In this document: one piece after another, positions 8,329 to 24,292 of the stretch
How positions within the stretch are numbered: position 1 is the first letter of the stretch
Layout of the letters: each line of letters begins with the position of its first letter
Source: Methylomonas sp. 11b
GTDB lineage: Bacteria; Pseudomonadota; Gammaproteobacteria; Methylococcales; Methylomonadaceae
Assembly (NCBI RefSeq): GCF_000515215.1
Contig: NZ_KI911557.1
Location: 2,289,741-2,353,740, forward strand
Reading direction: 5' to 3'
DNA: 64,000 bases
Translations under genes and position numbers: made by a program
The notes under the pieces: generated by a model
What the model saw: the letters and a program-made list of their open reading frames with translations, nothing else
What the model was told of the DNA's origin: nothing
The model's database searches: none

Positions 8329-9230
8329 TAACTTTCGGAAAGGCGGTTCAATTCGTCCTTCAGACTGAATTTGGGTGAGAACTGCCAGGTCCGAGACTCA
8401 AGCCGAATCCGCCCAATATCCTGCACCACACCGTGCACAGCGTAATCGATACGCGAATTGGACTTAAAACTGGATACGACCAAGGCCGCCAACTCTTCGG
8501 CGGTGTAAGACTCATCCGACCATAATTCGAAACACCGCTGCCTATGTCCTGATGTTTGCAGCAGCATAACAATATCCAAAATCGAATCGATGACATCCTG
8601 GATGTGAGTAAAATGAAAGCGGGTTTGGTTATTCAACACTCTTACCGCCTGATTTTGCTTGGCGCGTTTTACAAACGTCGGCAACAACTTGTTGACGTGA
8701 TCGCGCTTTCCACCGTAAACATCCGAAAGCCGGCAAATCGCTAAAGGCATCTCATAACTATTGGCAAAAGCCAACAGCAGTTGCTCGGCAGATTTCTTGG
8801 ATATTGCATAGATGTGATCGACATTGACCTGAGTGTCGTCCAACGTATCGTAGTAACTGACTTCGCGGGTGCTAAGATAGATAATCAAAGGCTTGCGAGC
8901 CGCTCCGGCGAGTAATTCTATCAAGTTAGTAGTCGCCAGAACCGTGGAGTTGACGCATTCCATCGGGTTGGCTCGTGCATCACTAACCCGTGATACGCCG
9001 GCAGCATGCACCACAATGTCTATATCGGTGAGTAACGGCGCCAAGCCACTCCTGTCCAGTAAATCCAAATGATGAAACCGAATACCTAGCGTGGCAAACT
9101 CGCCGGCCGTGTCGGCATGCGGCATCATTCTGTCCACGCCCGCAACCCGATAACCTGCTTTCGCCAACGCGATAGCCAGTTCACTGCCTACGAAGCCGCA
9201 GATACCGGTAATGAAATAATTAACAGCCAC
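8325..9230 (-). CDS. NAD-dependent epimerase/dehydratase (extended SDR)
   Basis: This sugar-nucleotide SDR has 301 residues if it starts at GTG 9230. A GGGAG ribosome binding site lies about 8 bases upstream and the Rossmann motif GICGFVG follows at residues 9-15. An upstream ATG at 9254 is also in frame but is deeper inside the preceding gene. The catalytic YxxxK is in IYAISKKSAEQ, preceded by the YLSTREVS strand. It is the last gene of the twelve-gene minus-strand run and overlaps the aminotransferase stop by 11 bases. It may act on the 4-keto or amino sugar handled by that enzyme. Epimerase, dehydratase and reductase cannot be distinguished here. Confidence 0.8.
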   Translation of the reverse strand: MAVNYFITGICGFVGSELAIALAKAGYRVAGVDRMMPHADTAGEFATLGIRFHHLDLLDRSGLAPLLTDIDIVVHAAGVSRVSDARANPMECVNSTVLATTNLIELLAGAARKPLIIYLSTREVSYYDTLDDTQVNVDHIYAISKKSAEQLLLAFANSYEMPLAICRLSDVYGGKRDHVNKLLPTFVKRAKQNQAVRVLNNQTRFHFTHIQDVIDSILDIVMLLQTSGHRQRCFELWSDESYTAEELAALVVSSFKSNSRIDYAVHGVVQDIGRIRLESRTWQFSPKFSLKDELNRLSESY

Positions 9231-10383
9231 CGGCAAACTCCCGGACTGACGCAATCACATAATCGCATTGCGCATCGTCCAGAAATGGATGTATCGGCAA
9301 TGACAACACTTCGCGGGCCACCCTCTCGGTCATGGGCAGAGAAACCGGTGCCAGCCGCAAATGCGGATTTAGGTGTAAGGGCTGCGGCCAATGAACGAAG
9401 CATTCTATGTGCCGTGATTGCAAATGTCTGATCAATCCAGCCCGGTCCCGGCAAAGTACCGGATAAGCGCTGAACACATCAAAATACCCACTGGACTGAC
9501 AGGAAACCGGTAAATGCACACCACGGCAATCGCTAAGCCCGGCATGGTAGCGAGCAGCTATCTGTCGGCGTCTATCGATATCATCCGCAAAATACCGCAA
9601 ATTCACATTCAACAAGGCGGCTTGCAGATTATCCAGCCGGGAATTGAAACCAAATCCCATCAAATCCTTGTTTTCATTCTGGCCGTGGTTGCGCAGCATC
9701 CGGATTTTCTCCGCCAGTAACGGATCGTTAGTGGTCACCAACCCGCCGTCTCCGTAACAATGCAGATTTTTCATCGGATGCAAACTAAAGGCGCCCAATT
9801 TGCCGAAACTACCGGCATACCGACCATCAATGCGCGCTCCCAGCGCTTGGGCAGCGTCTTCAACCACTGCCACCCCATATTGTTCGGCTATTGCCAATAT
9901 AACCGGCATGTCGCAGCAACGACCATTCATATGCACAGGAATGATCGCCTTGGTAGCTGGCGTAATTGCCGCCTGTAAAGCGTCGGGCGCGAGGTTAAAG
10001 TCCTGGCCGATATCGATAAGCACCGGCTTGGCGCCGCAATGCACAATAGCCGCCAGCGTTGCCACAAACGTATGCGCAACGGTTATCACTTCGTCGCCGA
10101 CACCGATACCCAAGGCTTTCAACGCCAAAAACAATGCGTCGGTACCGCTGTTGACACCTATCGCAAACTTCACCGCCAGTTTATCGGCGATGGCCGTCTC
10201 GAACGCTCTTACGTCATCTCGCAAAATATAGCTGGCGGAATGCCCTACCGACTCGAAAGCGGCTGTCAGCAATTGTCGGCGTTCGGCAAACTCCTGCTGA
10301 AGCCCGACGAAGGGAACAGCACTAACGTGATATTCCTGTAAAGTTTTTTTTGAATAATCTATTAACACTCGGTCGCGATTCAA
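9220..10383 (-). CDS. DegT/DnrJ/EryC1 sugar aminotransferase
   Basis: This PLP-dependent aminotransferase has 387 residues. PLP lysine K205 lies in LHPMKNL, D176 in VEDAAQA, and the fold motif NSGTDALFLAL is near residue 78. It belongs to the same superfamily as the LegC-like protein at 357-1496 but to a different branch, closer to enzymes that aminate 3- or 4-keto sugars. It follows the CgeB-like glycosyltransferase gene by 29 bases and overlaps the SDR gene after it by 11 bases. It would supply an amino sugar for the glycan. The substrate is not determined. Confidence 0.87.
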   Translation of the reverse strand: MNRDRVLIDYSKKTLQEYHVSAVPFVGLQQEFAERRQLLTAAFESVGHSASYILRDDVRAFETAIADKLAVKFAIGVNSGTDALFLALKALGIGVGDEVITVAHTFVATLAAIVHCGAKPVLIDIGQDFNLAPDALQAAITPATKAIIPVHMNGRCCDMPVILAIAEQYGVAVVEDAAQALGARIDGRYAGSFGKLGAFSLHPMKNLHCYGDGGLVTTNDPLLAEKIRMLRNHGQNENKDLMGFGFNSRLDNLQAALLNVNLRYFADDIDRRRQIAARYHAGLSDCRGVHLPVSCQSSGYFDVFSAYPVLCRDRAGLIRHLQSRHIECFVHWPQPLHLNPHLRLAPVSLPMTERVAREVLSLPIHPFLDDAQCDYVIASVREFAGGC

Positions 10384-10412: not shown

Positions 10413-11585
10413 CTACAACGCTTGAATATGCTCGAGAATCTGCTCGGCGCGGACACCCCAAGTATGATGATTTTTAATAAGCTCCAGCGTTTGTTTTTGC
10501 GCCTGACTGCCTTGATAGCGGATACTTTTCAATTGCTGGTAAACATCGTCAAAATCCAGCCATTTAAACTCGTAATAATGAAATTGCGGCGTGAAAAAAT
10601 CGGAAAGTCCGCGAGTATAAATTGCTCTTCCGGGATTATAGCTATCGTACTTATCGCCATCGCGATAGTCATACCACATCAACAATCCGCCCGAGGCCAT
10701 GCAATCGATGGCGCGAAAATGAAAGGAAATCCCATCGTGCAAATTGATATTGGATTTTTGATGAACCCGGTTTAGTTCCAACGGATTCTCTATAAAACGG
10801 CGATAATACTGCCGGTACTTACTCCACACACGCCAGTTCTGACTACCGTAAATCGCAATTGACTCGGAATATCGCAATGCAAAATCGATCAATTCGGTAC
10901 GATTACTCATGCGTTTTATGCGAATTAGTAGATCGTAATAAATATCATCACTCAGCGCGCACGAATACCCCAGCAATTCGCTTGCGATCCGATCAATTAT
11001 ACCGACACAGGACTCGTGAGTTTGCTCACAATAGGTATTGATATCCATATATTCGCTATATCGTTTGAGCAACATCTCAAAAGTGACGCGCGGATTATCC
11101 GGATGCAAAACCCGCGATAACTCTTGTGTCGTCCACGGTTGAGGAATATGACCAATAAAGCTGAACTCAGTATTGCTATCGCTCGCAATATTTTCAGGAA
11201 AATAGGTTTCAACACAGGTACCGGGCGGCATCCAATCCAGATACCCGCCAGGATTAAAACTTTCCAACCATCCTGGATCTAAGGCATAGGTAATATCGCT
11301 ACCGGTAATGTCACTTTCACATCGACCCTGCATATCCACCACCCAGGAAATATGCAAAATATTCAGCTCGTGCAATATCGGAATTTCATCCTTGACCCGG
11401 TTCATTTCAAAAATAGCACACGGTTTTTTCTCCCTGACCCAGTCCCTTATTTCCGTCTCGTTCAATAATTTGCAAGCCCCGCTGACTAATAAGCCCTGCT
11501 TTTGAAACGCTAAACCTATAAAGCCGAACAGCCGCCGATGAAACGCACTCTCGGTGGGCATGAAAATAGAAATATGCTTAATCAT
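10413..11585 (-). CDS. CgeB-like glycosyltransferase, paralogue of the 3284-4435 gene
   Basis: The 390-residue protein shares a run of motifs in the same order with the plus-strand gene at 3284: FEMNRV, SWVVDMQG, GSDITYAL, DWMPPGTC, FSFIGHIPQPWT, IYGSQNW, NLHDGIS and FRAIDCMASGG. The conserved D/E and glycine-rich C-terminal segment is what I would expect of a GT-B donor site. It lies between a radical SAM gene (64-base gap) and the DegT aminotransferase gene (29-base gap). The locus is slightly more AT-rich here than on either side. Glycosyltransferase activity is inferred from family resemblance; no acceptor is known. Confidence 0.68.
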   Translation of the reverse strand: MIKHISIFMPTESAFHRRLFGFIGLAFQKQGLLVSGACKLLNETEIRDWVREKKPCAIFEMNRVKDEIPILHELNILHISWVVDMQGRCESDITGSDITYALDPGWLESFNPGGYLDWMPPGTCVETYFPENIASDSNTEFSFIGHIPQPWTTQELSRVLHPDNPRVTFEMLLKRYSEYMDINTYCEQTHESCVGIIDRIASELLGYSCALSDDIYYDLLIRIKRMSNRTELIDFALRYSESIAIYGSQNWRVWSKYRQYYRRFIENPLELNRVHQKSNINLHDGISFHFRAIDCMASGGLLMWYDYRDGDKYDSYNPGRAIYTRGLSDFFTPQFHYYEFKWLDFDDVYQQLKSIRYQGSQAQKQTLELIKNHHTWGVRAEQILEHIQAL

Positions 11586-11649: not shown

Positions 11650-12753
11650 TTAAGCGGTTAAAGCCGCATCTCGCCAAAAATCTCTCACTTCACCGCCTGA
11701 GTTAGCATAGCTAATGGATTCATCTATTTTCTCAAGAGAATAATACTCCAGCGCTTTTTTTCCGAAATGATCGGTTACTTTATCCAAGGACATAATCTGG
11801 CAAAAAGTGCAGGCCTGACAAATCGGATTCCCGGGCTCGGTCACTTGGCGCTTATAAGTGGCGTAAGTATCGGAAACGATCAGCCCTTCCAGGCCGTTAT
11901 GGAATATATTGCCTAATTTCTGTTTGCCATAGCAGGTCCAAAGATCGCCGGCATGGTTGACGTATAATCTATCCTGATATCCGGTGCATTGTTCGCGCCG
12001 TAACAAACCGACGCCGACTTGAAAAATACTGTCATCAAAATGCATGGCTTTTGGATGGCACTCCACAAATTTTCTGACCCGCGCCACAGTCTCTATCGCC
12101 TTCGGAATATCGTAAATCAGCAGCTCTCCGACCAAGTCGTTATTAGGTTGCCGCAACTCCAAAAAACCAATGCGAAATGAGCAAAAACCGTTATCAAGCA
12201 GATAGCTCGCCAGGTCCGGCAGTTCATCCAAATTACAGCGCATGGCAACCGCGTTACTAGCCAAGTGCGGAGTGCTTGAATTCAAACGCAATTTCGCCTC
12301 GTTGATTAAATCTATAGCCCGGGAAATTTCACTAAACCCCAGGCCGCCGCGGATTTTACGCACCGTAGCGTCGTTGACGCCGTCGACCGAAAGCGACAAC
12401 AGCATCAATCCGGATTTAACCAATTGCTCGGCATCGGCAGCGGTCCTAATTAACTTGGCATTAGTCTGCACCGAAACTTTGGTACCCATATCGCTTAAAT
12501 AGCGGACGATTTCGAATAAATCCGGATTGATATACGGCTCACTACCGTCGCCAATATGAACTTGACCGAAATAATCGAAACCCGATTTCAAATTTTTAAC
12601 TTGAGCAGCGGACATCACTCGGAATTTTTTCAAATTATCGTGAAAAGTACACATGGCACAACTGATATTGCAGCCCAACGATATTTCCAGATGTAAGTTT
12701 GGCAAGGGTTTCACCCCCAATAACTCGCCAAACTCTTGACCACTCATCAACAT
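11650..12753 (-). CDS. radical SAM protein with C-terminal SPASM domain
   Basis: This 367-residue protein has the cluster motif CNISCAMC (C28, C32, C35) right after LEISLG, then a GDGSEP segment in the GGE position. The C-terminal SPASM-like region has CTGYQDRLYVNHAGDLWTC, GNIFHNGLEGL and CQACTFC, which would hold auxiliary iron-sulfur clusters. The family includes enzymes that modify peptides and enzymes that dehydrogenate or dehydrate sugars. The nearest genes are the 1281-residue glycosyltransferase and a CgeB-like glycosyltransferase. It starts 35 bases after the giant gene's stop. Confidence 0.82.
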   Translation of the reverse strand: MLMSGQEFGELLGVKPLPNLHLEISLGCNISCAMCTFHDNLKKFRVMSAAQVKNLKSGFDYFGQVHIGDGSEPYINPDLFEIVRYLSDMGTKVSVQTNAKLIRTAADAEQLVKSGLMLLSLSVDGVNDATVRKIRGGLGFSEISRAIDLINEAKLRLNSSTPHLASNAVAMRCNLDELPDLASYLLDNGFCSFRIGFLELRQPNNDLVGELLIYDIPKAIETVARVRKFVECHPKAMHFDDSIFQVGVGLLRREQCTGYQDRLYVNHAGDLWTCYGKQKLGNIFHNGLEGLIVSDTYATYKRQVTEPGNPICQACTFCQIMSLDKVTDHFGKKALEYYSLEKIDESISYANSGGEVRDFWRDAALTA

Positions 12754-12788: not shown

Positions 12789-15700
12789 CTAATTACCACC
12801 GAATCTATTACATATAGAATCCAAAACCCGCCCGGAAATAGCCTGATAAGAAAATAACCCGATAGTTTTTTGATAAGCTCGCTCGGCCATTTTCCCGCGT
12901 ATTTCGCCGTTGGCTAGATAATACTTAACCTTCTCGACGAGATCGGCTTCATCGTTGTAATAGGCCACTTCATGCTCGTCATAGTAATCGGCTAGTGGCG
13001 CGCCATCTTTGTAGATGGTCCTGGACAGCATGAAGGCGCCAGACGCCATAATTTCCAAAGCATGCATATGTAGCGTCGTTCCAGGACTGCCGTTGAAACA
13101 GATTTTCGAGCAATTCATTAGGTGGTTAATAAATTCGCCGTTGTCGGCAATACCTTTGGCATAAGGCAAAAATCGGTCAAATCTGTCCCAATTTCTGCCA
13201 TAGAGCGCCAATTTAATATTCAAATCGGCATCGATCAAGGCGGCAATCGGTGCCGTCTTCATTCTCAGCAAATAGTCAAAATGAAACCGAGTAGCGCTTC
13301 CGGCCAACAATAAATTCACTGCCGCAGCGTCCACCAAAATACCTTGGCTTTTCAACAACGCCACAATGGCGGCAAAGCCGTCACTTTGACTATCTACCCT
13401 GAGTTGATGAAACTGGTTGGCCGACAATCCTTGCAAATAAGCGATTACGCAGCGGTAGATGTCGACTAACTCGGCACGCTCGAATTTTCCCTGATCCAAT
13501 AGCGCAACTTCATGATGATCGAAACGCCAAACTTCGGAGGGAACGTTTTCAAACGCTAGAAACGTCCGTTCCGCATCAACCAAATGACTGATCACCAGAA
13601 AGTCGTATTCGAAAACGTTGCTCTGCTCGGGATGATAATAATGATCGTTGAATCCCACAGGCAAATACTCAACCGGAAAATCTTTGTATAAAGATCCACC
13701 GTTCATTGCCAGCCAATGTTGAGAAAACACGAAGGTAAAATCCATTTTAGTCATCGGCAGTGTGTTACCGGTGATATTGGGCAACATATCCTGTATCCAG
13801 TTTACAAATGGCACGGACTCGGGAATGCCAGCAAACTCATGCCGAAAATGATCTATGGTCAGGATAATGTCCGGCTTGAAACAATTGATCTCGTCTATTA
13901 AATGCTCGATATTGCTTAAGTAATAATTTTCAGTTTCGCTACAAAAGCGGATCGTCGCACCCAAGCGCTCGAAGCCGTCCAGCCAGTCGCGCATACAGTA
14001 TTTGAGAAAACTGGAGAAACGCGAGATATACCCCAGTACGCGCAATTGGCCGGCATGTTCCGGACTAAATTTCCGTCGCCACTCATCTGCGGTTATACCG
14101 CGATAGTAATCGGCAATTTGCTGCAAATTTACAAGATGCCGCTCGGCTTTATCTTGCTTGGCTAGCATAGATAATTGATAAACTCGCTGTGCCGCAATCT
14201 GCGCTTGAGGATCGAGATTGAACAACACGTCAGGTACAGCGGCTTCGAATTTCGAAAACTCGACAAATAAATCGGCCTCAACATGTTCATCGTGATAAAT
14301 GCGTAAGCGCGGGACAAGCAATAGAGGCCGTAAATCATGCAATAGCAGATTCAATAGCCATATTTCCGGCTTGGATTCGAGCAGATAAACGGGTACTTCA
14401 AATTCTGCCATCTCGGTGATCGGTAGAGCGGTCGCGTTAAATGTTGCCAACAACTCGTAACCAGAACCCAAGCCCACCAAAGCATAGCAACAGGTATTTT
14501 CGCGGGTCATCTCGGCAATGTTATTCTCGATCAAGCCTTTATGCTCGAGCAATGCAATATTGTCGAGCCGATAGCTTTCTTTGCCATCCCTCTCCACCGA
14601 AATCCGCCAGTATTCGCCGGCAATAGCTTGATCGACCGTGATGGCTATCTGCTGCCGCGGCCAGGCGGCCAATAAGGCTTGGCCTAACGCGGGGCGGTAT
14701 TGGGCCAGGCATAGCAGATTATTTTGCAAATTGGTAAGACAGGTTTGCCGCGCAGACTCCAAGCTACTGATTAGCAATACGTTCTCGCCACAGAGTGCGG
14801 GCAAAACTGCTACCGGTTCCGGCTCCGGTGTTTTGGTATGTTCACCATTAGTCAACGCGCGTAAATCGGTTAAATCGATTAGACGCCGGACAGCGGCCTT
14901 ATAGGTAAACTGTTGGGCCAAGCCTTCCGGCGGCTTGGCCGGCTGCAAGCGCTGAAGTAGGATGTTTTGCAATTCTTCGGCAGTTTTGAAGAACAGGCAA
15001 TACTCGTCCCAATGCGGCGGCTCGGCGACGTCCCGGCAATCGTATACCAGCGGAATACAGCCGCAGGCGGCTACTTCAGCAAGGCGTTGGGAGTTGATTT
15101 CGAAGGGATGGCAAACCAAGGCATAGCGGGCCGCACGATAAACATCCGCCACCGCCACGCCATGCTGCAATTCGCCACGATAATACGCCGCCACCTCGGG
15201 GTCCTGATCCCAATAGCGGCCATAGATATCCACCGGCAAACCGGCACATCCCTGTGCGGCGCATAACCATTTCACGGCATGGTCGCGGATTACGTAATGC
15301 AGCAGCTTCCAGAATACGAACTCATAGCTTAAAGAACTGGCTGCGGCTATTTGGGTAACCGTCGCTTCGTCAAAGCGGCCACCCTGCTCCATAACCGCAA
15401 GTAGTGCAGCCAACGCTAGTTTATGCTGAGTGTTTTCCGGATCTATCACCGGCAGATAGGAACTGCCGACAAACACAATTCTGTCTGTCCGGGCGGTTTG
15501 CTGGTCGCCATGGAATATCTCGTCGTCGATCACGAAATGTAGACGTTCCACTTTCGATGCCCCGCATTGCTCCAGATAGCGGTCGAACAAGGGCGAAATC
15601 GACAAATTGAAATCCCGGGCTCGCCATTTTAGTGGTTGCCGATTCTTCAGCTGCGGCATCAAATCTTGCCACCAGACTAGATTGACGATGTCATCGTGCA

Positions 15701-16634
15701 TGAAGCTATTGTTCAAACTGTTGACATAAAAACAGGCATGCGGATCGAAGCTGATATATTTTTCCAGCATATCCACCATATTGCTGCCTTCCATTTCATT
15801 GTCTTGAACGTAAAGCAGCACATCCCAACCCAGATCTGCAAAAGCCTTGGCTACACCCCGCGAGCTGTATTGCATGACCGTAGTCAAACGGCTGGTAGGA
15901 ATGAATATCCTGGGCGGTTTATTGCCGACTAAGCGCGGTTTTAAGATTTTGGCTTTGTTCAATAGCTGCTGAAGCAAGATCCGACGCTGACGTTCGACCG
16001 CACTACGGACGGCGGCAATATCTTGTTTGAGCTCGGCTTTAACGTCCTCGTCCAACTCTTCCGGAATCTCTAAATTCTCCGGGAACCGCATGCGCGAACG
16101 AATAAAAAAATCCTGCAAATCCGGTAGTTCCAGATGGATCAGATTCTCAAAACCATGCGAGGGTAACTCGCCCCGGTAATAACAAACCTGCAAGCCATCT
16201 ATGGTCGGATGATCGCAAGCCACCCGATTGCGCTGCTTTGCCGCATTCAGCGCCTGCAGCGGATCTATAAAATAGGTATCGAAATGTACATAGTCCGGCA
16301 CCCTATATTGACTGCGATACTGCGAGATTTCCTCAATCACATCCGCCGGCATGTCATTAAAATGCACGACACCGTCTTCAGAAATCGCGATGAGTTGGGG
16401 TATCGGTAATTGGTTGTGCGAAAAAAATTCGACAAACTTGTCGGCGGGGACCTGAATAAAATTCGGTAGTACGATGTCGGTGAGCAAGCCGTCGTAATAG
16501 CAATATTGCAGGCGCTCAACACCATTGACATCGCGCAGCCATTGTTGCTTGGCCGCCTCAGCATAAGCATCCTGGATATCCAGAAAAAATATATCTGCCA
16601 ACACCGAGGTCATCAGAGCGTCCGGGTCGATCAA
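12789..16634 (-). CDS. giant tandem CgeB-like glycosyltransferase (1281 aa)
   Basis: At 1281 residues this is two to three times the usual family length. Residues about 20-78 and 122-186 are a degenerate internal repeat (YCYYDG and VCYYRG, each followed by a leucine/aspartate segment ending EFF or DFF). Residues about 240-620 form one GT-B-like unit (VWWQDLMP, then CHPFEINSQRLAEVAACGC). Residues about 860-1281 form a second (VNWIQDMLP, then NGSPGTTLHMHALEIMASGAF). The middle is unassigned. The start at 16634 overlaps the upstream radical SAM stop by 4 bases. It might transfer two sugars in turn, but glycosyltransferase activity is inferred only from the C-terminal segments. Confidence 0.7.
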   Translation of the reverse strand: MIDPDALMTSVLADIFFLDIQDAYAEAAKQQWLRDVNGVERLQYCYYDGLLTDIVLPNFIQVPADKFVEFFSHNQLPIPQLIAISEDGVVHFNDMPADVIEEISQYRSQYRVPDYVHFDTYFIDPLQALNAAKQRNRVACDHPTIDGLQVCYYRGELPSHGFENLIHLELPDLQDFFIRSRMRFPENLEIPEELDEDVKAELKQDIAAVRSAVERQRRILLQQLLNKAKILKPRLVGNKPPRIFIPTSRLTTVMQYSSRGVAKAFADLGWDVLLYVQDNEMEGSNMVDMLEKYISFDPHACFYVNSLNNSFMHDDIVNLVWWQDLMPQLKNRQPLKWRARDFNLSISPLFDRYLEQCGASKVERLHFVIDDEIFHGDQQTARTDRIVFVGSSYLPVIDPENTQHKLALAALLAVMEQGGRFDEATVTQIAAASSLSYEFVFWKLLHYVIRDHAVKWLCAAQGCAGLPVDIYGRYWDQDPEVAAYYRGELQHGVAVADVYRAARYALVCHPFEINSQRLAEVAACGCIPLVYDCRDVAEPPHWDEYCLFFKTAEELQNILLQRLQPAKPPEGLAQQFTYKAAVRRLIDLTDLRALTNGEHTKTPEPEPVAVLPALCGENVLLISSLESARQTCLTNLQNNLLCLAQYRPALGQALLAAWPRQQIAITVDQAIAGEYWRISVERDGKESYRLDNIALLEHKGLIENNIAEMTRENTCCYALVGLGSGYELLATFNATALPITEMAEFEVPVYLLESKPEIWLLNLLLHDLRPLLLVPRLRIYHDEHVEADLFVEFSKFEAAVPDVLFNLDPQAQIAAQRVYQLSMLAKQDKAERHLVNLQQIADYYRGITADEWRRKFSPEHAGQLRVLGYISRFSSFLKYCMRDWLDGFERLGATIRFCSETENYYLSNIEHLIDEINCFKPDIILTIDHFRHEFAGIPESVPFVNWIQDMLPNITGNTLPMTKMDFTFVFSQHWLAMNGGSLYKDFPVEYLPVGFNDHYYHPEQSNVFEYDFLVISHLVDAERTFLAFENVPSEVWRFDHHEVALLDQGKFERAELVDIYRCVIAYLQGLSANQFHQLRVDSQSDGFAAIVALLKSQGILVDAAAVNLLLAGSATRFHFDYLLRMKTAPIAALIDADLNIKLALYGRNWDRFDRFLPYAKGIADNGEFINHLMNCSKICFNGSPGTTLHMHALEIMASGAFMLSRTIYKDGAPLADYYDEHEVAYYNDEADLVEKVKYYLANGEIRGKMAERAYQKTIGLFSYQAISGRVLDSICNRFGGN

Positions 16635-18022
16635 ATAAAATTGATATGTTCAGGCGGATTTTTTAAATCCCACAGAAACTTGTTCACATAATCCTGCCGG
16701 CAACCGATGGCGCAATCTTTATGCACATCCACCGACTCGGCGACGTCTTTATGTACCTGCCAGTAGCGTTCGCTGGTAGCTACCAAATCGTAAAAAGAGT
16801 CGGTATGTAGATCACCGATGTAAAAGCGCTCTTTATTGAAAAACGGTCCACAAGGATAAATTTTGCCGTTACCGGAAATCTGCAATAAGAACGGCGTGCC
16901 GAAACATTGGTCGTATTTGCGGTAGCCGTCCTTATAAAGATTGGTTTCACCGGCCGCATTGATCTTGTTCCATTTGGCTTGAACCACGTAGGTGTCATTA
17001 CTCAGCGCCTCGGCTTGTTTCAGGGTATCGCCGATTTTTAGATAGGCGTCGTAATCTATACCGATTTCCTTGTATTCTGAATCTGAACAATGCTTGATCA
17101 CGAAATAATCGACACCCAATTCGGCGCCCAGTTTGGCCTCGGCCAACACTTCGTCAAAACATTCCGGGATTAGCACCATCTGCAAGCCCAGCGTGCATTT
17201 GTAATTGTTTTCTTTCTTGATTTTCACCAGTTCGCGGATCTTGTCGATCAGCAAATGAAAATTGACTTCTTTGGATTGATGCACCCGCCGAAAACCTTCC
17301 GGGGTACCGGCGGATAGATTGAAGCGGATGTAACTCATGTTTTTCAGTAAGTCGTGAGCCCGATCCATATCCAATAACAAACCATTGGTGGCCATCGCGG
17401 TGTCTATGCCCAGTTCGCCGGCCAGCACGGTGGCATCGTAGAGGGTCGGATTCAGCGTCGGTTCGCCATCGCCGATAAATCCTAACGAGCGCACCCCTAA
17501 TTTGCCGCAATCGCGCACAAAATTCAGCAAAGCATCCCGGCCAATCATGGTGCCCTTGGTCATGTTCTGTACCACGGCGTAGCAATACAGGCAGGCGGTA
17601 TTGCAAAACTTGGTCAACCCCATATCGATATGCACCGGCGCAAAACGTTGGCCGTTTTGCCAAGCCTGCACTCTGTCTAAATGGTGCATCATTTTGTGAC
17701 CGTCAAAACGAAACCGTTCTCGCTGGGTGCGGAAACTGGGACCGGTGAACTGGTTGGGAACGTGTTGTTCATGCTCACTGCCCGCTTCCAGACGAATGAT
17801 GCCTTCTTGATCGTCGTGGGAAATGCTTTGTAATTTCTGGCCTGGCAATTTAGCCAACTGGCTGGTGTCGATCACCTGATAGTCGCTCGACAAGGCGCTA
17901 CGGTCCACGATGTTATTGGACGTGCGCAGTTTATGTCCGGGTTGGCTGAACATGGGCACGTTGTCGGGTATATCGGTCACGGCGCTGTTGCCGAAGCGAT
18001 TGGTTTGTTCAATTTTTGCCAT
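16631..18022 (-). CDS. radical SAM/SPASM protein with PxHINFI tail
   Basis: The 463-residue protein has about 105 unassigned N-terminal residues and then HKMMHHLDRVQAW, which precedes the radical SAM core. The cluster motif is CNTACLYC (C140, C144, C147), with GDGEPTLNP as the GGE-like motif. The C-terminus has SPASM-like cysteines (IYPCGPF, CAIGC) and ends PPEHINFI. The flanking HK..H..RV..W motif and the HINFI tail recur in the protein at 23192-24292, so both belong to one subfamily. It lies 19 bases downstream of the E1 beta gene and overlaps the giant glycosyltransferase gene. Reaction unknown. Confidence 0.82.
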   Translation of the reverse strand: MAKIEQTNRFGNSAVTDIPDNVPMFSQPGHKLRTSNNIVDRSALSSDYQVIDTSQLAKLPGQKLQSISHDDQEGIIRLEAGSEHEQHVPNQFTGPSFRTQRERFRFDGHKMMHHLDRVQAWQNGQRFAPVHIDMGLTKFCNTACLYCYAVVQNMTKGTMIGRDALLNFVRDCGKLGVRSLGFIGDGEPTLNPTLYDATVLAGELGIDTAMATNGLLLDMDRAHDLLKNMSYIRFNLSAGTPEGFRRVHQSKEVNFHLLIDKIRELVKIKKENNYKCTLGLQMVLIPECFDEVLAEAKLGAELGVDYFVIKHCSDSEYKEIGIDYDAYLKIGDTLKQAEALSNDTYVVQAKWNKINAAGETNLYKDGYRKYDQCFGTPFLLQISGNGKIYPCGPFFNKERFYIGDLHTDSFYDLVATSERYWQVHKDVAESVDVHKDCAIGCRQDYVNKFLWDLKNPPEHINFI

Positions 18023-18041
18023 GGTCTGATGCTCTTTTTCG

Positions 18042-19115
18042 TTAAAACGGGCCGACGAAGCTGCGGTCGGGTTGATCTTTGGGCAAATCGGACTGCAAAG
18101 CGCCGATTACCGAGGCTGTTAATTCTGATCGACCTAGCATTTCCAGGACGGCACTGGCGATCTGCTCGGCTCCCGGATAATAGTGGTTCGCGACATAATG
18201 CGAGGTCGGTACCGGGTGATTAGGATAAACAATCAAACGCGGCGCTTGCTTCAGGCTATCCCCGTGCGCCAACACGAGCTTAGATAGCAACTGATGGCCG
18301 CTCGACGCCATTTCCGGCGCGCAATCCGCTATTAACAATTTACCGCCGGTTTTAGCCAGCGATGCGGCAACACTCTCTATGTCCAACGCACTGACGCAAC
18401 GCATATCCAATACTTCGGCATCAATGCCGTGTTCGGCCAGTGTCGTTGCCGCCTTCAAGGCTTCAATACTCATGTGCGAGAACGCCGCCAACGTCACATC
18501 CCGGCCTTCGCGCATTACCGCCGCGCCGTCCAAGCCAGCCGCCGGCGCCTGTTTATCCACCTCGCCAATGATATGGTGCAACCAGCGATGTTCGATAAAC
18601 AGCACCGGATTGTTATCGGCAATTGCCGCCAACATAAAGTGGTAGGCATCGCCGGCGGTGGTCGGCATCACCACTTTCAAGCCCGGCACTTGCGCGAACA
18701 TAGCTTGCAGACTTTGGGAATGCTGCGGTCCCTGCCCCCAGCCGCGGCCGATGATCACGCGAATCACCAAGGGTACTTTTTGTTGACCGTCAAACATGTA
18801 ATGCCACTTCGCGGCGTTATTGACCAATTGATCAACCGACAGCAAGGCAAAATCGATACGTTGATGCACCAGCACCGGCCGCATGCCGGCCAGCGCCGCG
18901 CCGATGCAGATGCCGGTCATGCCGTTCTCAGCCAGCGGCATATCCAGCACTCGCTCGGCGCCGTACTTTTCCCTTAAGCCCTGGGTGGTGCCAAAGATGG
19001 TTTTTGGATCTGGTACGCCTTCGCCGATTAATAACATGTCCGGAAACTGGGCCAAAGCATCGTCCAACGCTTCGCGGATCGCCTCGCCATAAGTCATCAT
19101 CTTTAAGTCACGCAT
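18042..19115 (-). CDS. ThDP-dependent dehydrogenase E1 beta-like subunit
   Basis: This 357-residue protein is homologous to the beta subunit of 2-oxoacid/acetoin dehydrogenase E1 (transketolase pyrimidine-binding and C-terminal domains). Typical segments are MTYGEAIREALDDAL, DMPLAENGMTGICIGAAL, GRGWGQGPQHSQ and a C-terminal transketolase-like domain. It pairs with the alpha gene just upstream, overlapping it by 8 bases, and together they would make an alpha2-beta2 ThDP enzyme. No E2 or E3 gene is nearby, so a full oxoacid dehydrogenase complex is unlikely. Surrounding sugar genes suggest acyl transfer to, or decarboxylation of, a sugar intermediate; that is inference. Confidence 0.88.
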   Translation of the reverse strand: MRDLKMMTYGEAIREALDDALAQFPDMLLIGEGVPDPKTIFGTTQGLREKYGAERVLDMPLAENGMTGICIGAALAGMRPVLVHQRIDFALLSVDQLVNNAAKWHYMFDGQQKVPLVIRVIIGRGWGQGPQHSQSLQAMFAQVPGLKVVMPTTAGDAYHFMLAAIADNNPVLFIEHRWLHHIIGEVDKQAPAAGLDGAAVMREGRDVTLAAFSHMSIEALKAATTLAEHGIDAEVLDMRCVSALDIESVAASLAKTGGKLLIADCAPEMASSGHQLLSKLVLAHGDSLKQAPRLIVYPNHPVPTSHYVANHYYPGAEQIASAVLEMLGRSELTASVIGALQSDLPKDQPDRSFVGPF

Positions 19116-20100
19116 ACAAATGCTGCCCCATGCTATCGATAGTCGGACGCGTACCTTGCAAGGCCCACTCGAACGCTTGCTCGATTTCTTCGGCCAACTG
19201 GGTTTCCATCTGTGCTAGTTCGGTGTCATTGCTCAATTGCTTTGCGAGTAACATCTGCCGGGTTTGCAACAAGGGACAACGCAATTTCCATTCTGCCAAC
19301 TCGCCGGGGCTGCGATAACCCAAGTCGTCATCTTCGTTAGGTCCGCAGTGTTCCGGCCAGCGATGGGTATGCAATTCCAAGAACTGCGGACCTAAGCCAT
19401 TTCGAGCATTGGCAACAGCTACGCGCGCCAGTTCATAGACCTCATCGACCCGATTGCCGTCACCGTTGACTGCGGTTAAACCGTGGGCAGCGGCAATCGG
19501 GTAAATATCGCGCTTGGGTTGGCGCTCTGCTAGCGCCGTCATCACCGAATATTGATTGTTCTCGCAGATAAATAGCAACGGCAGTTGTTTTAACACCGCA
19601 AAATTCAAGGTTTCGTGCATCACCCCTTCTTCGAAGCAACCATCGCCGAAGAAAATCACCACCACGTTGCGATGTCCCTCAACTGCTTTTTGTTTGATCT
19701 TCTCAGCCCAAGCATAACCGGCGGCTAATGGCACCGTGCCGCCGACGATGGGCGTGGAAGCGACAAAACCGGCTTCCAGGTCGGTCAGATGCATGGAGCC
19801 GCCCCGACCACCACAGCAGCCTTCGGCAAAGCCATACAACTCCGCCAACAGGCGCGGCAGATCGCCGCCTTTGGCCAAATAGTGGCCATGGCCGCGATGA
19901 TTGCTGAACACCTTGTCTTGCACCGTCAAATGCGCGGAAACCCCCACCGCAATCGCTTCTTCGCCGATACAAAGATGGGTGGGACAACGCATTTGCTGCT
20001 CCGCATAGCGCCGAGCAATCGCTTCCTCAGCCCGGCGGATGCGCAGCATTTGATAATAAAGGTGCTTCAGATCGGCCGATGCGGGACTCATAACTGTCAT
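19108..20100 (-). CDS. ThDP-dependent dehydrogenase E1 alpha-like subunit
   Basis: The 330-residue alpha subunit shows the E1 signatures RIRRAEEAI, HLCIGEEAIAVG, SNHRGHGHYLAKGGD, GRGGSMHL and the ThDP motif GDG (152-154) through NN (181-182). It lacks a lipoyl or other extra domain. The ATG at 20100 overlaps the stop of the swapped HldE-like gene, and its own end overlaps the beta gene, so alpha and beta should be made in equal amounts. Sitting inside a nucleotide-sugar operon it is more likely a sugar-tailoring or precursor enzyme than part of central metabolism. E1-like pairs have been proposed to add two-carbon branches to sugars in some antibiotic clusters, from memory. Confidence 0.88.
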   Translation of the reverse strand: MTVMSPASADLKHLYYQMLRIRRAEEAIARRYAEQQMRCPTHLCIGEEAIAVGVSAHLTVQDKVFSNHRGHGHYLAKGGDLPRLLAELYGFAEGCCGGRGGSMHLTDLEAGFVASTPIVGGTVPLAAGYAWAEKIKQKAVEGHRNVVVIFFGDGCFEEGVMHETLNFAVLKQLPLLFICENNQYSVMTALAERQPKRDIYPIAAAHGLTAVNGDGNRVDEVYELARVAVANARNGLGPQFLELHTHRWPEHCGPNEDDDLGYRSPGELAEWKLRCPLLQTRQMLLAKQLSNDTELAQMETQLAEEIEQAFEWALQGTRPTIDSMGQHLYA

Positions 20101-21617
20101 TTCAACAAAGTGGTAATGTATTTAAATAAAGCCACTGCCCGCACCGGTTCGCGGTTACAGACAATTTGCACATCCAGCGCGGCGGCGGCGCTGCCGGCAA
20201 ACAAGGCTTGCTCCGGCGACAGCCCTCCGCCCAAACATAAACCCGCCACGGACAGAAAAGCATCACCGGCACCGATCCGATCCACCACTTTGGACGACAA
20301 AGCGGGAATCTTGTATGCCGTTTTAGCTTGATCCAGCATTAACGCGCCTTTAGTACCGCGGGTGATGGCGATATGGTTGGCGCTTAATTTGTCGGCCAAC
20401 TGGCCGGCCAATTCCTCGATGACACCACCTCTATCGTGGCTCGCCAATCGTAATTCCGGTTCGTTTAACGACAAGAAATCCGCGTTCGGATAACGCGTGA
20501 TTAAGTGATAACCCCGATTGCCACTATTGACCTGCGCGTTCACCGCCAAATATTTAGCGCCTTTGGACAAGGCCGCGACCATTTGATTGGAGATGAAGCC
20601 ATTACCAAAATCCGGCACGATCACCACATCGTAATCGCGCAAATGCTTTTCCAGCCAAGCCACGATCTTGCGATTGGTTTCCTCCGGCAAGGGCGCATCG
20701 TTATAAAAATACACTTCAAATAACTTAGCGATGTCGGCATCGACATAACGTCGCTTCACGATCGTCGGCCGATCCTGACTGAAGAAGAACACCGGATCAA
20801 TCGCCGGGTTCAGATTGGTACGGATGAAATCTTCGTGACTTTTGGTGGCGCCCAAACCCGACAGCAAAGTGACGTTGTGGGCAAATTCCGCGACGTGATT
20901 CGCCACCGCTATCGCGCCACCGGCAAAGCGTTCGTAGTCGTTGTATTTCACCGAAAACACATTGCCCTTGCCGGTCTGCCCCAGGGGCGAGGTGTAATGG
21001 TATTCGTCGACTATCGCTTCGCCCACCACCAATACGTTCAATCCGCTCAAGGCCTTGAGTTTATCGATAATCTCGTTGGCGCCGACAGTTTCCTTGAATT
21101 GATCCAGGTACGCGGAGATTTCCGGGGAAAACACCTCAAAATATTCGTTCAATAAGCGTGTCGAACTGGACGTCAATTCATCGGTAAAGTAAATCTTGCC
21201 GCCGTGCCGTTCCACAGCGTCTTTTTCGTGCTGGATATTGCCGGTCAGATCGTCGCTGGTACTTTTGTAATCGCTACCCTTCACATATAAATCAGGCTTC
21301 ACCTGATCCAATACTTCCACGGCGGTAATCGCATGGTTGATCGCCACACTATCGACGCAAGCCAGTGCCGCTATGTTTTCCGCACGCAAATATTGGTTGA
21401 ACACCGGCCGCCCAGGACCCTTATTAACGTATTCGTCGGCAGTAACACTCACCAGCAAGGCATCAGCCTGCCGCGCGCCACTTTGCAGGTGGCGAATATG
21501 GCCGATATGCAATAAATCGAAGGTGCCGTGACATAAAGCCACCGATTTGCCTTGGCCTTTCAACTCGGCGGCACGTTTTGCCAGTTGTTCGATGGAGACA
21601 ATTTTTTCCGTGGACAT
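20097..21617 (-). CDS. bifunctional cytidylyltransferase-PfkB sugar kinase, HldE-like in swapped domain order
   Basis: This 506-residue protein has a nucleotidyltransferase domain first (CHGTFDLLHIGH, residues 29-40, then VKGSDY) and a PfkB/ribokinase domain second (NVLVVGEAIVDEY near residue 195, FAGGAIAVANH, and DRIGAGDAF with catalytic D452). Canonical HldE carries the kinase first, so this is the reverse fusion. The family phosphorylates heptose 7-phosphate at C1 and then transfers a nucleotide. The next gene is a GmhA-like isomerase, which supports a heptose-type substrate. It overlaps the E1 alpha start by 4 bases. Whether the product is ADP-, CDP- or GDP-linked cannot be told. Confidence 0.85.
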   Translation of the reverse strand: MSTEKIVSIEQLAKRAAELKGQGKSVALCHGTFDLLHIGHIRHLQSGARQADALLVSVTADEYVNKGPGRPVFNQYLRAENIAALACVDSVAINHAITAVEVLDQVKPDLYVKGSDYKSTSDDLTGNIQHEKDAVERHGGKIYFTDELTSSSTRLLNEYFEVFSPEISAYLDQFKETVGANEIIDKLKALSGLNVLVVGEAIVDEYHYTSPLGQTGKGNVFSVKYNDYERFAGGAIAVANHVAEFAHNVTLLSGLGATKSHEDFIRTNLNPAIDPVFFFSQDRPTIVKRRYVDADIAKLFEVYFYNDAPLPEETNRKIVAWLEKHLRDYDVVIVPDFGNGFISNQMVAALSKGAKYLAVNAQVNSGNRGYHLITRYPNADFLSLNEPELRLASHDRGGVIEELAGQLADKLSANHIAITRGTKGALMLDQAKTAYKIPALSSKVVDRIGAGDAFLSVAGLCLGGGLSPEQALFAGSAAAALDVQIVCNREPVRAVALFKYITTLLK

Positions 21618-21621
21618 GAGC

Positions 21622-22185
21622 TTATTTCCTGAGCAGATGATCGGTAATATGGTGCAACACGAACAGATGCCCCAACTCGACCATGCCGTAATGACTGCTG
21701 TTCAGCCAGCAATTCCAGCGCCCCAGTTTACGGAGCGGATTGTCGGACTTAAAGCCACTTAGCGTCATGACCGGCAAGCCTTTGGCGTTGGCAGCTTGTA
21801 CCGCGTTGACGATATTCAAGGATTGGCCGGAACTGCTGATTGCGATCAATAAATCGTCCGGATTCGCAAACGCGGTAATTTGTTTGGCAAAGGCCTGCTC
21901 GTAACCGAAGTCGTTAGTAAAACACGTCAAGGGCGCGGCTTCGTGTAAGGTCAAGGCGCACAAGCCGCCAACATTCCGCAAGTCGGTAATCACATGACTG
22001 GCAATCGCCGCGCTGCCACCGTTGCCCAGCACCATGATCTTAGCCTGCTGGTCGCGGACTCTGGCAAACTCGGCAAGCAATTGCTGTATCACCGATTCGC
22101 CGTCCAGGGTTTGGCCCTGCGCGTCTGTAAATACGCTGCTGTTCAGCAAAGTCGCAAAATCCGCTGCCGCTTGTCCGATAGCCAT
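21622..22185 (-). CDS. SIS-domain phosphosugar isomerase, GmhA-like
   Basis: From ATG 22185, preceded by a GGGAG ribosome binding site about 7 bases away, the protein has 187 residues, close to GmhA length. An in-frame extension to 22470 would run through the SDR gene and is rejected. The SIS domain shows VLGNGGSAAIASHV, TCFTNDFGYEQAF and AISSSGQSLNIVNAV. GmhA converts sedoheptulose 7-phosphate to a manno-heptose 7-phosphate, the substrate of HldE. The swapped HldE-like gene follows 4 bases after this gene. C-terminal residues around MVELGHLFVLHHITD match the family. Confidence 0.86.
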   Translation of the reverse strand: MAIGQAAADFATLLNSSVFTDAQGQTLDGESVIQQLLAEFARVRDQQAKIMVLGNGGSAAIASHVITDLRNVGGLCALTLHEAAPLTCFTNDFGYEQAFAKQITAFANPDDLLIAISSSGQSLNIVNAVQAANAKGLPVMTLSGFKSDNPLRKLGRWNCWLNSSHYGMVELGHLFVLHHITDHLLRK

Positions 22186-22195
22186 GGGCTTCTCC

Positions 22196-23182
22196 CTATT
22201 TGTCCAGGTACTTAAACCAGCCCGCAGTAGCGTCAGCGATAGAAGCCGAAGTCCACAGTGGCGCGTTTTGCCAGTAATCGATGTGCGCCAACATATTGGC
22301 CACACCCTGCTCGAAACTAACTTGCGGCTTCCAGCCGAGTTTTGCTTGGATTTTACGGGTATCGGCAAAGGTGCAATCGGGCTCGCCGGGCCGCTTGGGA
22401 ATGTATTCGATCGCACCGCCCAATAATCCCACCAGTTGATTGACACTGTAGGTGCCGCCGCTACCGACATTCATGATCTCGCCACAAAGTTCCGATTCCG
22501 CTGCGGCGATAAAGGCTTTGGCCACATCGGTGACATAGGTAAAGTCGCGGGTCTGGGTGCCGTCGCCAACCACGGTAAAGGGTTTACCGTTAATCTTTTG
22601 CGCCAGAAACACCCCGAACACCGCGCCATAAGCGCCAGTGGTGCGGGCATGCGGGCCGTAAACGTTGAATAAGCGCAGCGACACAGCAGGCAAGTCGTAG
22701 AGTTGTGCCCAGTGCATCACTAGTTCCTCACCCAGATATTTGGTCAACGCGTAAGGATACTGTGGCTGAACGGGTGCAGATTCCGGCGTGGGAAACTGAT
22801 CTGGGATGCCGTAGCAGGATGACGACGCCGCGTAGACAAATCGCTTGATACCGGCGGCGCGGGCCGCTTCCAATACATTGAATGTACCGCTGACATTGGT
22901 CTCGTAATAGGCGCGCGGCTGCTCGATGGAGGGTACGATGTCGGCTAGACCGGCCAAGTGAAAAACCCAGTCAATGCCTGCGAACAAAGGTGCGATGGTT
23001 TCGGCGTCGCGAATATCGGCCTGATGAAACTCAAAACGCTCCTGGCCGAGCAAATCAGCGATGGTTTCTTTGCGGCCGCCAACCAGACTGTCGATCACGC
23101 TGACCTGATGGCCTTTTTGCCATAACTCCCGGCTCAAATGACTGCCGATGAATCCCGCACCGCCGGTAACCAATACTTTCAT
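22196..23182 (-). CDS. NAD-dependent nucleotide-sugar epimerase (extended SDR)
   Basis: The 328-residue protein has GGAGFIGSH at 7-15, the AASSSCYG serine strand and YxxxK at Y144-K148 (YPYALTKYLGEE). The best fit is the UDP-glucose/UDP-GlcNAc 4-epimerase-like group (LFNVYGPHAR, VGDGTQTRDFTYVTDVA). In this operon it could instead epimerise a heptose nucleotide made by the HldE-like and GmhA-like proteins. Its gene lies 10 bases upstream of the GmhA-like start and 9 bases downstream of the first radical SAM gene. Confidence 0.85.
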   Translation of the reverse strand: MKVLVTGGAGFIGSHLSRELWQKGHQVSVIDSLVGGRKETIADLLGQERFEFHQADIRDAETIAPLFAGIDWVFHLAGLADIVPSIEQPRAYYETNVSGTFNVLEAARAAGIKRFVYAASSSCYGIPDQFPTPESAPVQPQYPYALTKYLGEELVMHWAQLYDLPAVSLRLFNVYGPHARTTGAYGAVFGVFLAQKINGKPFTVVGDGTQTRDFTYVTDVAKAFIAAAESELCGEIMNVGSGGTYSVNQLVGLLGGAIEYIPKRPGEPDCTFADTRKIQAKLGWKPQVSFEQGVANMLAHIDYWQNAPLWTSASIADATAGWFKYLDK

Positions 23183-23191
23183 GCGTTCGTC

Positions 23192-24292
23192 CTAGATAAA
23201 GTTGATATGGGCCGGCTGGTTGGCCGTGAGTTTGTCCAAATATTGATTAACCGACTCCATCCGACAGTTTTTACGGCATTGGCTAATATCCAAGTCCTGG
23301 GTGATGTACTGCCAGTTCTGCCGGCGTTTCTCGCCTTCCCAGATGGCTTGGAAAGACTGCTGATGGATATTGCCGTAAGCAAAGCGTTGATCGGTGAGAT
23401 AGGCACTGCAGCCATAGACTTCGCCGTCAGCCATGATATAGCCCCAAAAATAAGGCGTGGCGTGGCAGGTTTTGTAACGCTCGGTTTCCGATTGGCTGTA
23501 GTTCTTCATGGTCTGTTCGCGAAATACCACGTTAAAGCCGTCGCCGTTGAATTGGGCCAGTTCCTCGGCCATGCCCAGCAGATTGTCGTAACGCAGGCTT
23601 TCGTAGCGGCGGGTTTCGCTGAATAGATGTTGGGAGTAAGGTTTGACGACCAGATAATCCAAACCGACATCGCGGCAGATTTTTGCCAGCGTGGTTACTT
23701 CATGCTGATTTTCCGGCAACAATAAAATTTGTGCGCCTAGAGCGCAGGACAGTTGCTGGGCTTTTTTATGTTCGACCGCACGGCGCAGATTATTCAGCAC
23801 CAAGTCAAAATCGGACGCCTTGGTTTGATGAATGGCTGCATAATTTTCGGCACTGCCAGCATTCAGCGACACCTTGATCCATGATACCAGCGGCAAGGAT
23901 TGCTCGACAAAACGTTGATTCATCAACGTGCCGTTGGTGGTGAACGACACGTCGATACCGGCATCAAAAGTCCATTTGACGATTTCGTTAATCTCCTTAT
24001 GCAACATCGGCTCGCCCTCGCCGGCATACATGATGCTTTTTACGCCGAGCTTGCCCATCTCTGTCAAACGCTCCGCCAAAATTTTGACATCCAGCCGCTG
24101 CGCTTTATAGCCTATGTAATCCACCGCGCAAAACGTGCAGCGATGATTGCATGCACCTACCGGCGACACCTCCATGTAGATAGGATATACGGCTTTCGCT
24201 TGCTGCCAATCGTGCCTGCCATCCAACCATTGCGCCACCCGTTGCGGGTGATACACCAGTTTATGACTGTCTATGCCGTATTTGTCTGCCAT
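23192..24292 (-). CDS. radical SAM/SPASM protein with PxHINFI tail
   Basis: This 366-residue protein is the first gene of the minus-strand run. The cluster motif is CNHRCTFC (C48, C52, C55), the GGE-like motif is AGEGEPMLH, and the SPASM-like region has VYGCSAYL, GNIHQQSFQAIW and CRKNCR. It ends QPAHINFI. Ahead of the core is HKLVYHPQRVAQWLDG, matching a segment in the protein at 16631-18022, so the two are paralogues. That one operon has two members suggests successive steps or two substrates. The reaction is not known. Confidence 0.83.
   Translation of the reverse strand: MADKYGIDSHKLVYHPQRVAQWLDGRHDWQQAKAVYPIYMEVSPVGACNHRCTFCAVDYIGYKAQRLDVKILAERLTEMGKLGVKSIMYAGEGEPMLHKEINEIVKWTFDAGIDVSFTTNGTLMNQRFVEQSLPLVSWIKVSLNAGSAENYAAIHQTKASDFDLVLNNLRRAVEHKKAQQLSCALGAQILLLPENQHEVTTLAKICRDVGLDYLVVKPYSQHLFSETRRYESLRYDNLLGMAEELAQFNGDGFNVVFREQTMKNYSQSETERYKTCHATPYFWGYIMADGEVYGCSAYLTDQRFAYGNIHQQSFQAIWEGEKRRQNWQYITQDLDISQCRKNCRMESVNQYLDKLTANQPAHINFI

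Follow-up and report, generated by a model that had tools for sequence, protein, structure and literature searches.

We analysed a 64,000-nt window (positions 2,289,741–2,353,740) of the complete 5.41-Mb genome of Methylomonas sp. 11b, with the focus on a sugar operon of seven minus-strand genes at window positions 16631–24292. As the initial annotation of this DNA had described, the genes are co-directional and tightly packed, with an intergenic spacing in order of 9, 10, 4, −4, −8, and 19 bases, that is, gaps of at most 19 bases (about 20 had been stated) and overlaps of 4–8 bases. The first gene (23192–24292) encodes rSAM1, a 366-aa radical S-adenosylmethionine (SAM)/SPASM protein (PF04055, 63.7 bits; PF13186, 36.9 bits; CNHRCTFC motif), and is followed by NDPep (22196–23182), a 328-aa extended short-chain dehydrogenase/reductase (SDR) of the nucleoside diphosphate (NDP)-sugar epimerase type (PF01370, 221 bits; SSSCYG and YPYALTK motifs). 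The GmhA-like sugar isomerase SIS (21622–22185; PF13580, 50.6 bits) has its most likely start corrected to 22185, which yields a protein of 187 aa; a longer open reading frame of 282 aa extends back into the epimerase gene. HldEsw (20097–21617; 506 aa) fuses a nucleotidyltransferase (PF01467, 53.3 bits) to a PfkB kinase (PF00294, 70.5 bits). The next two genes encode a thiamine diphosphate (ThDP)-dependent E1 pair: the ThDP-binding alpha subunit E1a (E1_dh; 19108–20100; 330 aa; PF00676, 193.4 bits), which was aligned with human pyruvate dehydrogenase (PDH) E1 alpha, and the beta subunit E1b (18042–19115; 357 aa), which was aligned with PDH E1 beta chains and comprises Transket_pyr (PF02779, 113.8 bits) and Transketolase_C (PF02780, 70.4 bits). 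The last gene (16631–18022) encodes rSAM2 (463 aa), a paralogue of rSAM1 (29% identity over 375 aa, E 5e-54). Both proteins carry the CxxxCxxC motif and the Radical_SAM and SPASM domains of Pfam (the SPASM domain of rSAM2 scored 21.5 bits, just at the cut-off), and thus are the two related radical SAM/SPASM proteins that had been recognised from the sequence.

The grouping of these genes is no chance arrangement, and the set is conserved well beyond this genome, as the initial annotation had proposed to examine. Of 251 genomes of the order, 16 encoded HldEsw (the Methylomonas genome among them), distributed over 2 of 48 genera, and all 16 carriers retained the order and strand of epimerase, SIS, HldEsw, E1a, and E1b; this comparison used 1.5-kb flanks, which placed rSAM1 and rSAM2 outside the view. 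In a phylum sample of 398 genomes, 49 encoded HldEsw, and a search of the same genomes with E1b gave 20 with a match at E 1e-95 or better (a cut set after seeing a gap between 1.6e-95 and 1.9e-86), 19 of which also encoded HldEsw (hypergeometric p 2.6e-18, kinship ignored; 10 family codes). A scan of named genomes returned at least 589 stretches, 572 of them encoding HldEsw relatives, from which the best 80 were kept; these span many phyla, and the closest HldEsw among the best 80 of 572 belongs to a Methylococcaceae metagenome-assembled genome (L067, 90% identity). Searching 100 loci (L047–L146) with family profiles revealed all seven families in nine of them, namely the window itself (L047), L048, L051, L064, L065, L068, L069, L121, and L129. 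The carriers include other Gammaproteobacteria, a Magnetococcales-type genome (L051, genome G335, which shares its family code with G355 and G439), Elusimicrobia (L121), and Ruminiclostridium (L129). No description of this gene set was found among the papers listed by searches of the open-licence PubMed Central (PMC) literature, and to that extent the earlier statement that no pathway with this set had been described holds. Neither an absence of co-occurrence nor membership of the homologous sets in a known heptose or central-metabolism pathway, the two outcomes named beforehand as speaking against a novel pathway, was found. We regard the operon as genuine and conserved, a probable variant of the NDP-heptose type of sugar synthesis.

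Comparing the activation enzymes with the ADP-heptose families separated homology from membership. In HldEsw the nucleotidyltransferase (residues 29–137, approximately 21207–21533) precedes the PfkB kinase (residues 194–484, approximately 20166–21038), which is the reverse of the HldE order. The protein had been called a swapped HldE-like protein; the reversed domain order was borne out, but HldE membership was not, as HldEsw scored 163.8 bits against PRK11316 (cut-off 521) and none of 93 HldEsw rows contained the HENase motif (F/L)xxGxSTT, as given in the relevant passage of PMC11461863. The canonical HldE encoded elsewhere in the genome passes TIGR02198 (415.9 bits, cut-off 345) and carries FIEGHSTT. 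The only curated model passed was the generic nucleotidyltransferase domain TIGR00125 (HldEsw, 48.5 vs 27.7 bits). In six loci (L105, L107, L111, L121, L126, and L138) the HldEsw halves appear as two neighbouring frames, possibly two distinct genes for the nucleotidyltransferase and the kinase.

For SIS, the suggested GmhA-like isomerase, SIS-family homology was evident, but a strict GmhA assignment did not stand: it reached 84.1 bits against TIGR00441 (cut-off 209.45, which the genome's own GmhA copies in L172 and L173 likewise missed with 170 and 191 bits), and two zinc-site residues are changed. The GmhA zinc ligands given in the corresponding passage of PMC5387315 are H61, E65, H183, and Q175. 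Among 46 SIS rows (as for HldEsw, window and near relatives included), H61 is kept in 45 and H183 in 40, E65 is replaced by D in 45, and Q175 by E in 44 and by D in one. Both other GmhA copies of the genome have H, E, Q, and H at these positions, and the L173 copy passes PRK13936 (311 vs 276 bits), which marks it as the canonical GmhA. Because SIS keeps the two histidines and the remaining two positions are acidic, a metal-dependent isomerase in which the changed D and E residues could bind the metal is still plausible. NDPep (39 family rows, window included) scored under the NCBIfam cut-offs of its 25 best families (galE, 197.4 vs 262.3 bits), and we read its motifs as being without the D/E of a 4,6-dehydratase. 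As canonical HldE and GmhA sit elsewhere in the genome, the operon is not the standard heptose route.

The E1 pair is related to, and distinct from, the dehydrogenase components. E1a scored 271 bits against the PDH model TIGR03182 (cut-off 393.85), E1b 251.5 bits against NF006667 (cut-off 321), and Transketolase_N stayed below its Pfam cut-off (20.6 vs 22 bits). The PLAEN and QHSQ motifs of E1b align with those of PDH E1 beta, with the Glu present in 33 of 33 family rows; we take this Glu to activate the cofactor and the His of QHSQ to be an active-site residue, as in ThDP enzymes of the E1 type. No E2 or E3 domain was detected by Pfam among the 20 proteins of 357–27191, the remaining genome not having been searched for them, and at the locus the description as a dehydrogenase-type ThDP pair without E2/E3 was therefore correct. 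An HxRxDF motif (VHQRIDF, residues 83–89, 18849–18869) contributes Arg86, which is conserved in all 33 family rows (near relatives and window included), in all 8 viral rows, in four of five plasmid E1 betas, and in 9 of 17 further E1 betas of the phylum sample (two of the nine being family members), the other eight having another residue. An arginine at this position would suit an anionic substrate. In L051 and in the Magnetococcales loci L070 and L130, alpha and beta subunits are fused in one frame of approximately 695 aa, and open frames of 690–724 aa were seen in 11 of the 20 E1-family genomes of the phylum sample. The predicted model of the fused L130 protein was poor (mean predicted local distance difference test score 66.7, predicted template modelling score 0.47); its alignment had 10 rows, the ends to which single-subunit rows were trimmed were approximate, and the first L083 row lay mostly upstream of the gene. 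On the Streptomyces griseofuscus plasmid pSGRIFU1, an E1 pair (L149:13989–16035) reaches approximately 430 bits to both profiles and is surrounded by acyl-carrier and ketosynthase genes, with no sugar genes in 31 kb.

Comparing the partner genes of HldEsw across loci showed that the E1 pair and transketolase (TK) largely replace each other. After removal of six near-duplicates (94 left) and of loci shorter than 12 kb, 71 loci remained for statistics, 67 of them with HldEsw above 500 bits; the p values from these counts ignore relatedness. E1 was present in 24 loci and TK in 29, with both in 2, E1 alone in 22, TK alone in 27, and neither in 20, the last including L080, whose short E1-like pair scored under the threshold. 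The two are thus nearly exclusive (odds ratio 0.067, p 8e-5). TK is split into two genes in most of the 29 loci and full-length in three, without which p is 1.8e-4. A quick tree of HldEsw, in which many forks were weak, gave at least 10 switches between E1 and TK. The exchange can be seen in place: an Omnitrophota locus (L077, shorter than 12 kb and outside the 71-locus set) has the order HldEsw, SIS, rSAM1, TKn, TKc, and rSAM2, and L134 has HldEsw, SIS, rSAM1, E1a, E1b, and rSAM2, with E1 exactly in the TK place of L077. The order in L129 is HldEsw, rSAM1, E1a, E1b, and rSAM2, and in L121 one SDR lies between E1b and rSAM2. The TKn proteins of L077 and of L193, a contig classed as viral, scored 411.5 and 279 bits as TKn vs 30.6 and 34.5 bits as E1a; the TKc frames of both (188 and 160 aa) would, judged by length only, leave no room for Transketolase_C behind the pyrimidine domain.

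Further partner genes follow similar patterns. E1 was present in 13 of 16 rSAM2 loci (odds ratio 17, p 1.3e-5), and rSAM2 has a ThDP gene on its own strand no more than 1.2 kb away in 13 of the 17 cellular loci and 7 of the 12 viral loci that encode it. rSAM1 (20 loci) never occurred with the other SDR, SDR0 (32 loci; p 3.7e-7), nor NDPep (27 loci) with a GSU2086-family protein (17 loci; p 9e-5). Tree-based pair tests were not significant for rSAM1/SDR0 (median p 0.25), NDPep/GSU2086 (0.5), or E1/rSAM2 (0.5), and these patterns may therefore partly reflect descent. The GSU2086-family protein (NF052581), encoded in L060, L062, L089, L094, L104, L111, L151, and others, may have an ArgZ-like Rossmann fold, to judge by a weak Pfam match, and possibly stands in for the epimerase step. 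Among solved chains, the best matches of rSAM1 (27 family rows, window included) were cytosylglucuronate decarboxylase (7vob, 39.1 bits), a chain named "Fe-S radical SAM" (26.8 bits), and DesII (24.1 bits), relatives that weakly hint at radical editing of a sugar. In large-genome Pseudomonadota (L056, L057, and L059), NDPep, HldEsw, SDR0, HAD-like, APH-like, split TK, two DegT, and methyltransferase genes share one strand, with SIS divergent.

The same exchange extends to a second heptose-type system. Elsewhere in the Methylomonas genome (L172, 2550001–2570000), a B12-radical SAM gene is followed by HddA-like (151.5 vs 600 bits), TKn, TKc, DegT, HddC-like (172.8 vs 300 bits), GmhA-like, and SDR genes, adjoined, as judged by eye, by ABC-transporter-like genes. 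The Solidesulfovibrio magneticus plasmid pDMC1 (L148) carries an HddA-like gene (133.3 vs 600 bits), E1a, and E1b, then a GDP-fucose-synthase-like gene, DegT, SDR, and a nucleotidyltransferase gene (130.8 vs 300 bits for the HddC model and 160.4 vs 440 for that of mannose-1-phosphate guanylyltransferase), with a SIS gene 5.7 kb farther on, and L189 (genome G435) has HddA-like, E1a, E1b, and DegT. HddA-type operons thus come with TK (L172) or with E1 (pDMC1, L189). A transketolase-like 644-aa gene near the canonical GmhA (L173) is on the opposite strand and was not used as evidence.

Related cassettes were also present on contigs classed as viral. A search of IMG/VR gave 225 relatives; among the best 80, 18 contigs classed as viral had HldEsw and at least one scored partner, with E1 or a short E1-like pair in 11, TK in 4, both in none, and neither in 3 (L202/L203 and L205/L206 look like duplicates). 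The contig L193 mentioned above has the order HldEsw, rSAM1, TKn, TKc, and rSAM2. E1b frames of 173–208 aa in L198, L209, and L214 are, by length alone, too short for Transketolase_C, and longer E1b proteins occur in L195, L201, and L203. A very short E1-like pair (approximately 200 aa each) lies beside HldEsw, SIS, and rSAM2 in L196, L198, L199, L209, and L210. No HldEsw match at E 1e-20 was found in GenBank phage records.

In the window, the same-strand run continues past 16631 into glycan genes. A 1281-aa glycosyltransferase-like protein (12789–16634; PF13524, 92.9 bits, 2 stretches) overlaps rSAM2 by 4 bases, and its gene also adjoins rSAM2 in the Methylococcales loci L064 and L065; it likely transfers the operon product. 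Four further minus-strand genes follow down to 8325, with gaps of 35, 64, and 29 bases and then an overlap: rSAM3, a radical SAM/SPASM protein (11650–12753; PF04055, 63.4 bits), a 390-aa glycosyltransferase-like protein (10413–11585; PF13524, 29.6 bits), a DegT/DnrJ/EryC1 aminotransferase (9220–10383; PF01041, 352.6 bits), and, overlapping the aminotransferase gene, an SDR of the epimerase/dehydratase type (8325–9254; PF01370, 118.1 bits), which is the last same-strand gene. With rSAM3 and another at 7150–8328, the glycan locus encodes four radical SAM/SPASM proteins overall. A promoter and terminator scan gave counts within the range of shuffled sequences (20 vs 20.5; 23 vs 20.5, s.d. 4.6).

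Taken together, SIS, the kinase-nucleotidyltransferase, and the SDR follow the logic of NDP-heptose making, and our preferred reading, which we regard as evenly poised between holding and failing, is that the operon would be a dedicated pathway for a nucleotide-activated, heptose-like higher sugar of the surface glycan, in which the E1 pair acts as a transketolase-like two-carbon transferase. The E1 pair, as a ThDP ketol transferase, would add a two-carbon unit to an aldose phosphate to give a ketose phosphate, a product suggested by the slot it shares with transketolase. SIS would isomerise the ketose phosphate to an aldose phosphate, the PfkB half of HldEsw would phosphorylate the anomeric carbon, and the nucleotidyltransferase half would form the NDP-sugar, aided, where required, by a phosphatase encoded elsewhere. 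NDPep would then epimerise the NDP-sugar, rSAM1 and rSAM2 might edit it by a radical reaction such as an epimerisation, an oxidation, or a deoxygenation, with rSAM2 acting in concert with the ThDP enzyme, and the 1281-aa glycosyltransferase could transfer the edited sugar. In favour of this reading are the near-exclusivity and repeated switching of E1 and TK around HldEsw, the in-place exchange there and in HddA-type operons, the Arg marker of E1b, the tracking of HldEsw by the E1 family, and the two His and two acidic residues at the SIS zinc site. The initial annotation had proposed a modified or two-carbon-branched higher sugar for the surface glycan; a higher-sugar pathway beside glycan genes agrees with our results, and the two-carbon branch is one option only.

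Several observations weigh against assigning a transketolase-like role to the E1 pair in such a pathway. By sequence it is PDH-like and not a transketolase, a pair of the same wider group occurs apart from sugar genes on the Streptomyces plasmid, and SIS is present in only 16 of 24 E1 loci. Both ThDP enzymes occur in L066 and L071, and in L182 and L185 at most approximately 4 kb separates E1 from split TK (on one strand in L185). In addition, TK loci have other partners (HAD-like, APH-like kinase, and methyltransferase genes), so that E1 and TK may each be used for a different sugar. A phylogeny-controlled E1/TK pair test was not significant either (7 pairs; TK opposite in 4.0 and the same way in 0.3; median p 0.22); the exchange is recurrent, but its exclusivity is uncertain once phylogeny is taken into account.

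The strongest rival, which we nevertheless consider unlikely, is that the E1 pair works after activation, transferring acetyl from pyruvate onto a keto-sugar to form a two-carbon-branched sugar. It would then act like AviB1/AviB2 and Pau11/Pau12, E1-like pairs for which the relevant passages of PMC4753412 and PMC4425429 propose such a branch from pyruvate and describe a pau11 replacement strain. DegT aminotransferases, which act on keto-sugars, in 11 of 24 E1 loci and also in Azospirillum oryzae would fit this chemistry. According to the same sources, however, paulomycose is built with TDP-hexose genes and not with SIS and a kinase-nucleotidyltransferase (PMC4425429), and yersiniose, a Gram-negative example, uses YerE, a TPP-dependent flavoprotein (PMC4753412, PMC4425429). 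The E1 pair, moreover, mostly occupies the transketolase slot, which points more to the making of a carbon chain than to branching of an NDP-sugar. TDP-hexose genes are also used for the other sugars of the AviB/Pau type.

A rather improbable alternative is that E1 and transketolase are separate tailoring modules for two sugars, nearly exclusive because one locus usually makes one sugar, with E1 performing another acyl or ketol chemistry together with rSAM2. The association of E1 with rSAM2 (13/16) and of TK with HAD-like, APH-like, and methyltransferase genes speaks for such modules, as do the four loci with both pairs, but not the swap of ThDP enzymes at one site, beside retained rSAM1 and rSAM2 genes, in L077 and L193 or its recurrence in HddA-type operons. 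We regard it as highly improbable that the operon duplicates the usual ADP-heptose route (GmhA, HldE, HldD) and lies by coincidence near a PDH E1 unrelated to it. Homology to these families and the SIS zinc site, where two of four ligands are identical and the remaining two positions are acidic, speak for such a route; the missed curated cut-offs, the missing HENase motif, and canonical HldE and GmhA elsewhere led us to reject it, and the tracking of HldEsw by E1 in 19 of 20 genomes and the lack of E2/E3 in the locus also count against it. A PDH of central metabolism was likewise rejected on the missed cut-offs, the lack of E2/E3 among the scanned neighbours, and the tracking of HldEsw.

Returning to the dedicated higher-sugar pathway with a transketolase-like E1 pair, a bolder version, which we put forward tentatively and consider somewhat doubtful, is that a new class of ThDP ketol transferases arose from dehydrogenase E1, repeatedly swaps with transketolase, and builds higher-carbon sugars edited by paired radical SAM enzymes, the cassette being shared across phyla and carried by viruses. 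If true, a large and widespread group of surface-sugar loci would have one chemical logic in common: chain building by a dedicated ThDP enzyme, activation by a reversed HldE-like protein, and editing by radical SAM enzymes. A transketolase-like function would be added to enzymes of the E1 type, which are usually seen as components of dehydrogenase complexes, and further higher sugars on bacteria as well as phage-borne surface modification would be indicated.

Among known systems, the antibiotic pathways with AviB1/AviB2 (avilamycin) and Pau11/Pau12 (paulomycin) share an E1 alpha/beta-like pair in sugar biosynthesis, but are actinobacterial and place a branch on a keto-sugar; they were compared with the operon by description only. 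In Geobacter sulfurreducens, GSU2085 (hldE, −3.1), GSU2086 (−3.2), and GSU2087 (gmhA, −3.7) are scored among the electrode-growth genes of a genome-scale mutant study (PMC5585712), which lists GSU2086 as a sugar-operon protein whose function is unknown. The three genes have the order of the HldEsw-GSU2086-SIS loci L094, L104, and L151, with GSU2085 likened to HldEsw by annotation and gene order only; unlike in our operon, no E1 pair is reported in the passage of PMC5585712 on these genes. With the ADP-heptose pathway (GmhA, HldE, GmhB, HldD), the operon shares the succession of isomerase, PfkB kinase, HxGH nucleotidyltransferase, and SDR epimerase; it differs in the reversed domain order, the missing HENase motif, the changes of E to D and Q to E in SIS, the added ThDP pair and two radical SAM proteins, and in that no GmhB was seen in the run. 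The GDP-heptose pathway (GmhA, HddA, GmhB, HddC) takes its kinase and nucleotidyltransferase from other families, and the HddA- and HddC-like proteins found here scored below the curated cut-offs, but it belongs to the same purpose class: a comparable operon of the Methylomonas genome includes a split transketolase of its own, and E1 pairs were found in such operons (L148, L189). Split transketolase itself belongs to the Transketolase_N instead of the E1_dh family and has other partner genes in most loci, but is likewise a two-gene ThDP enzyme and takes the same operon slot at a number of HldEsw loci.

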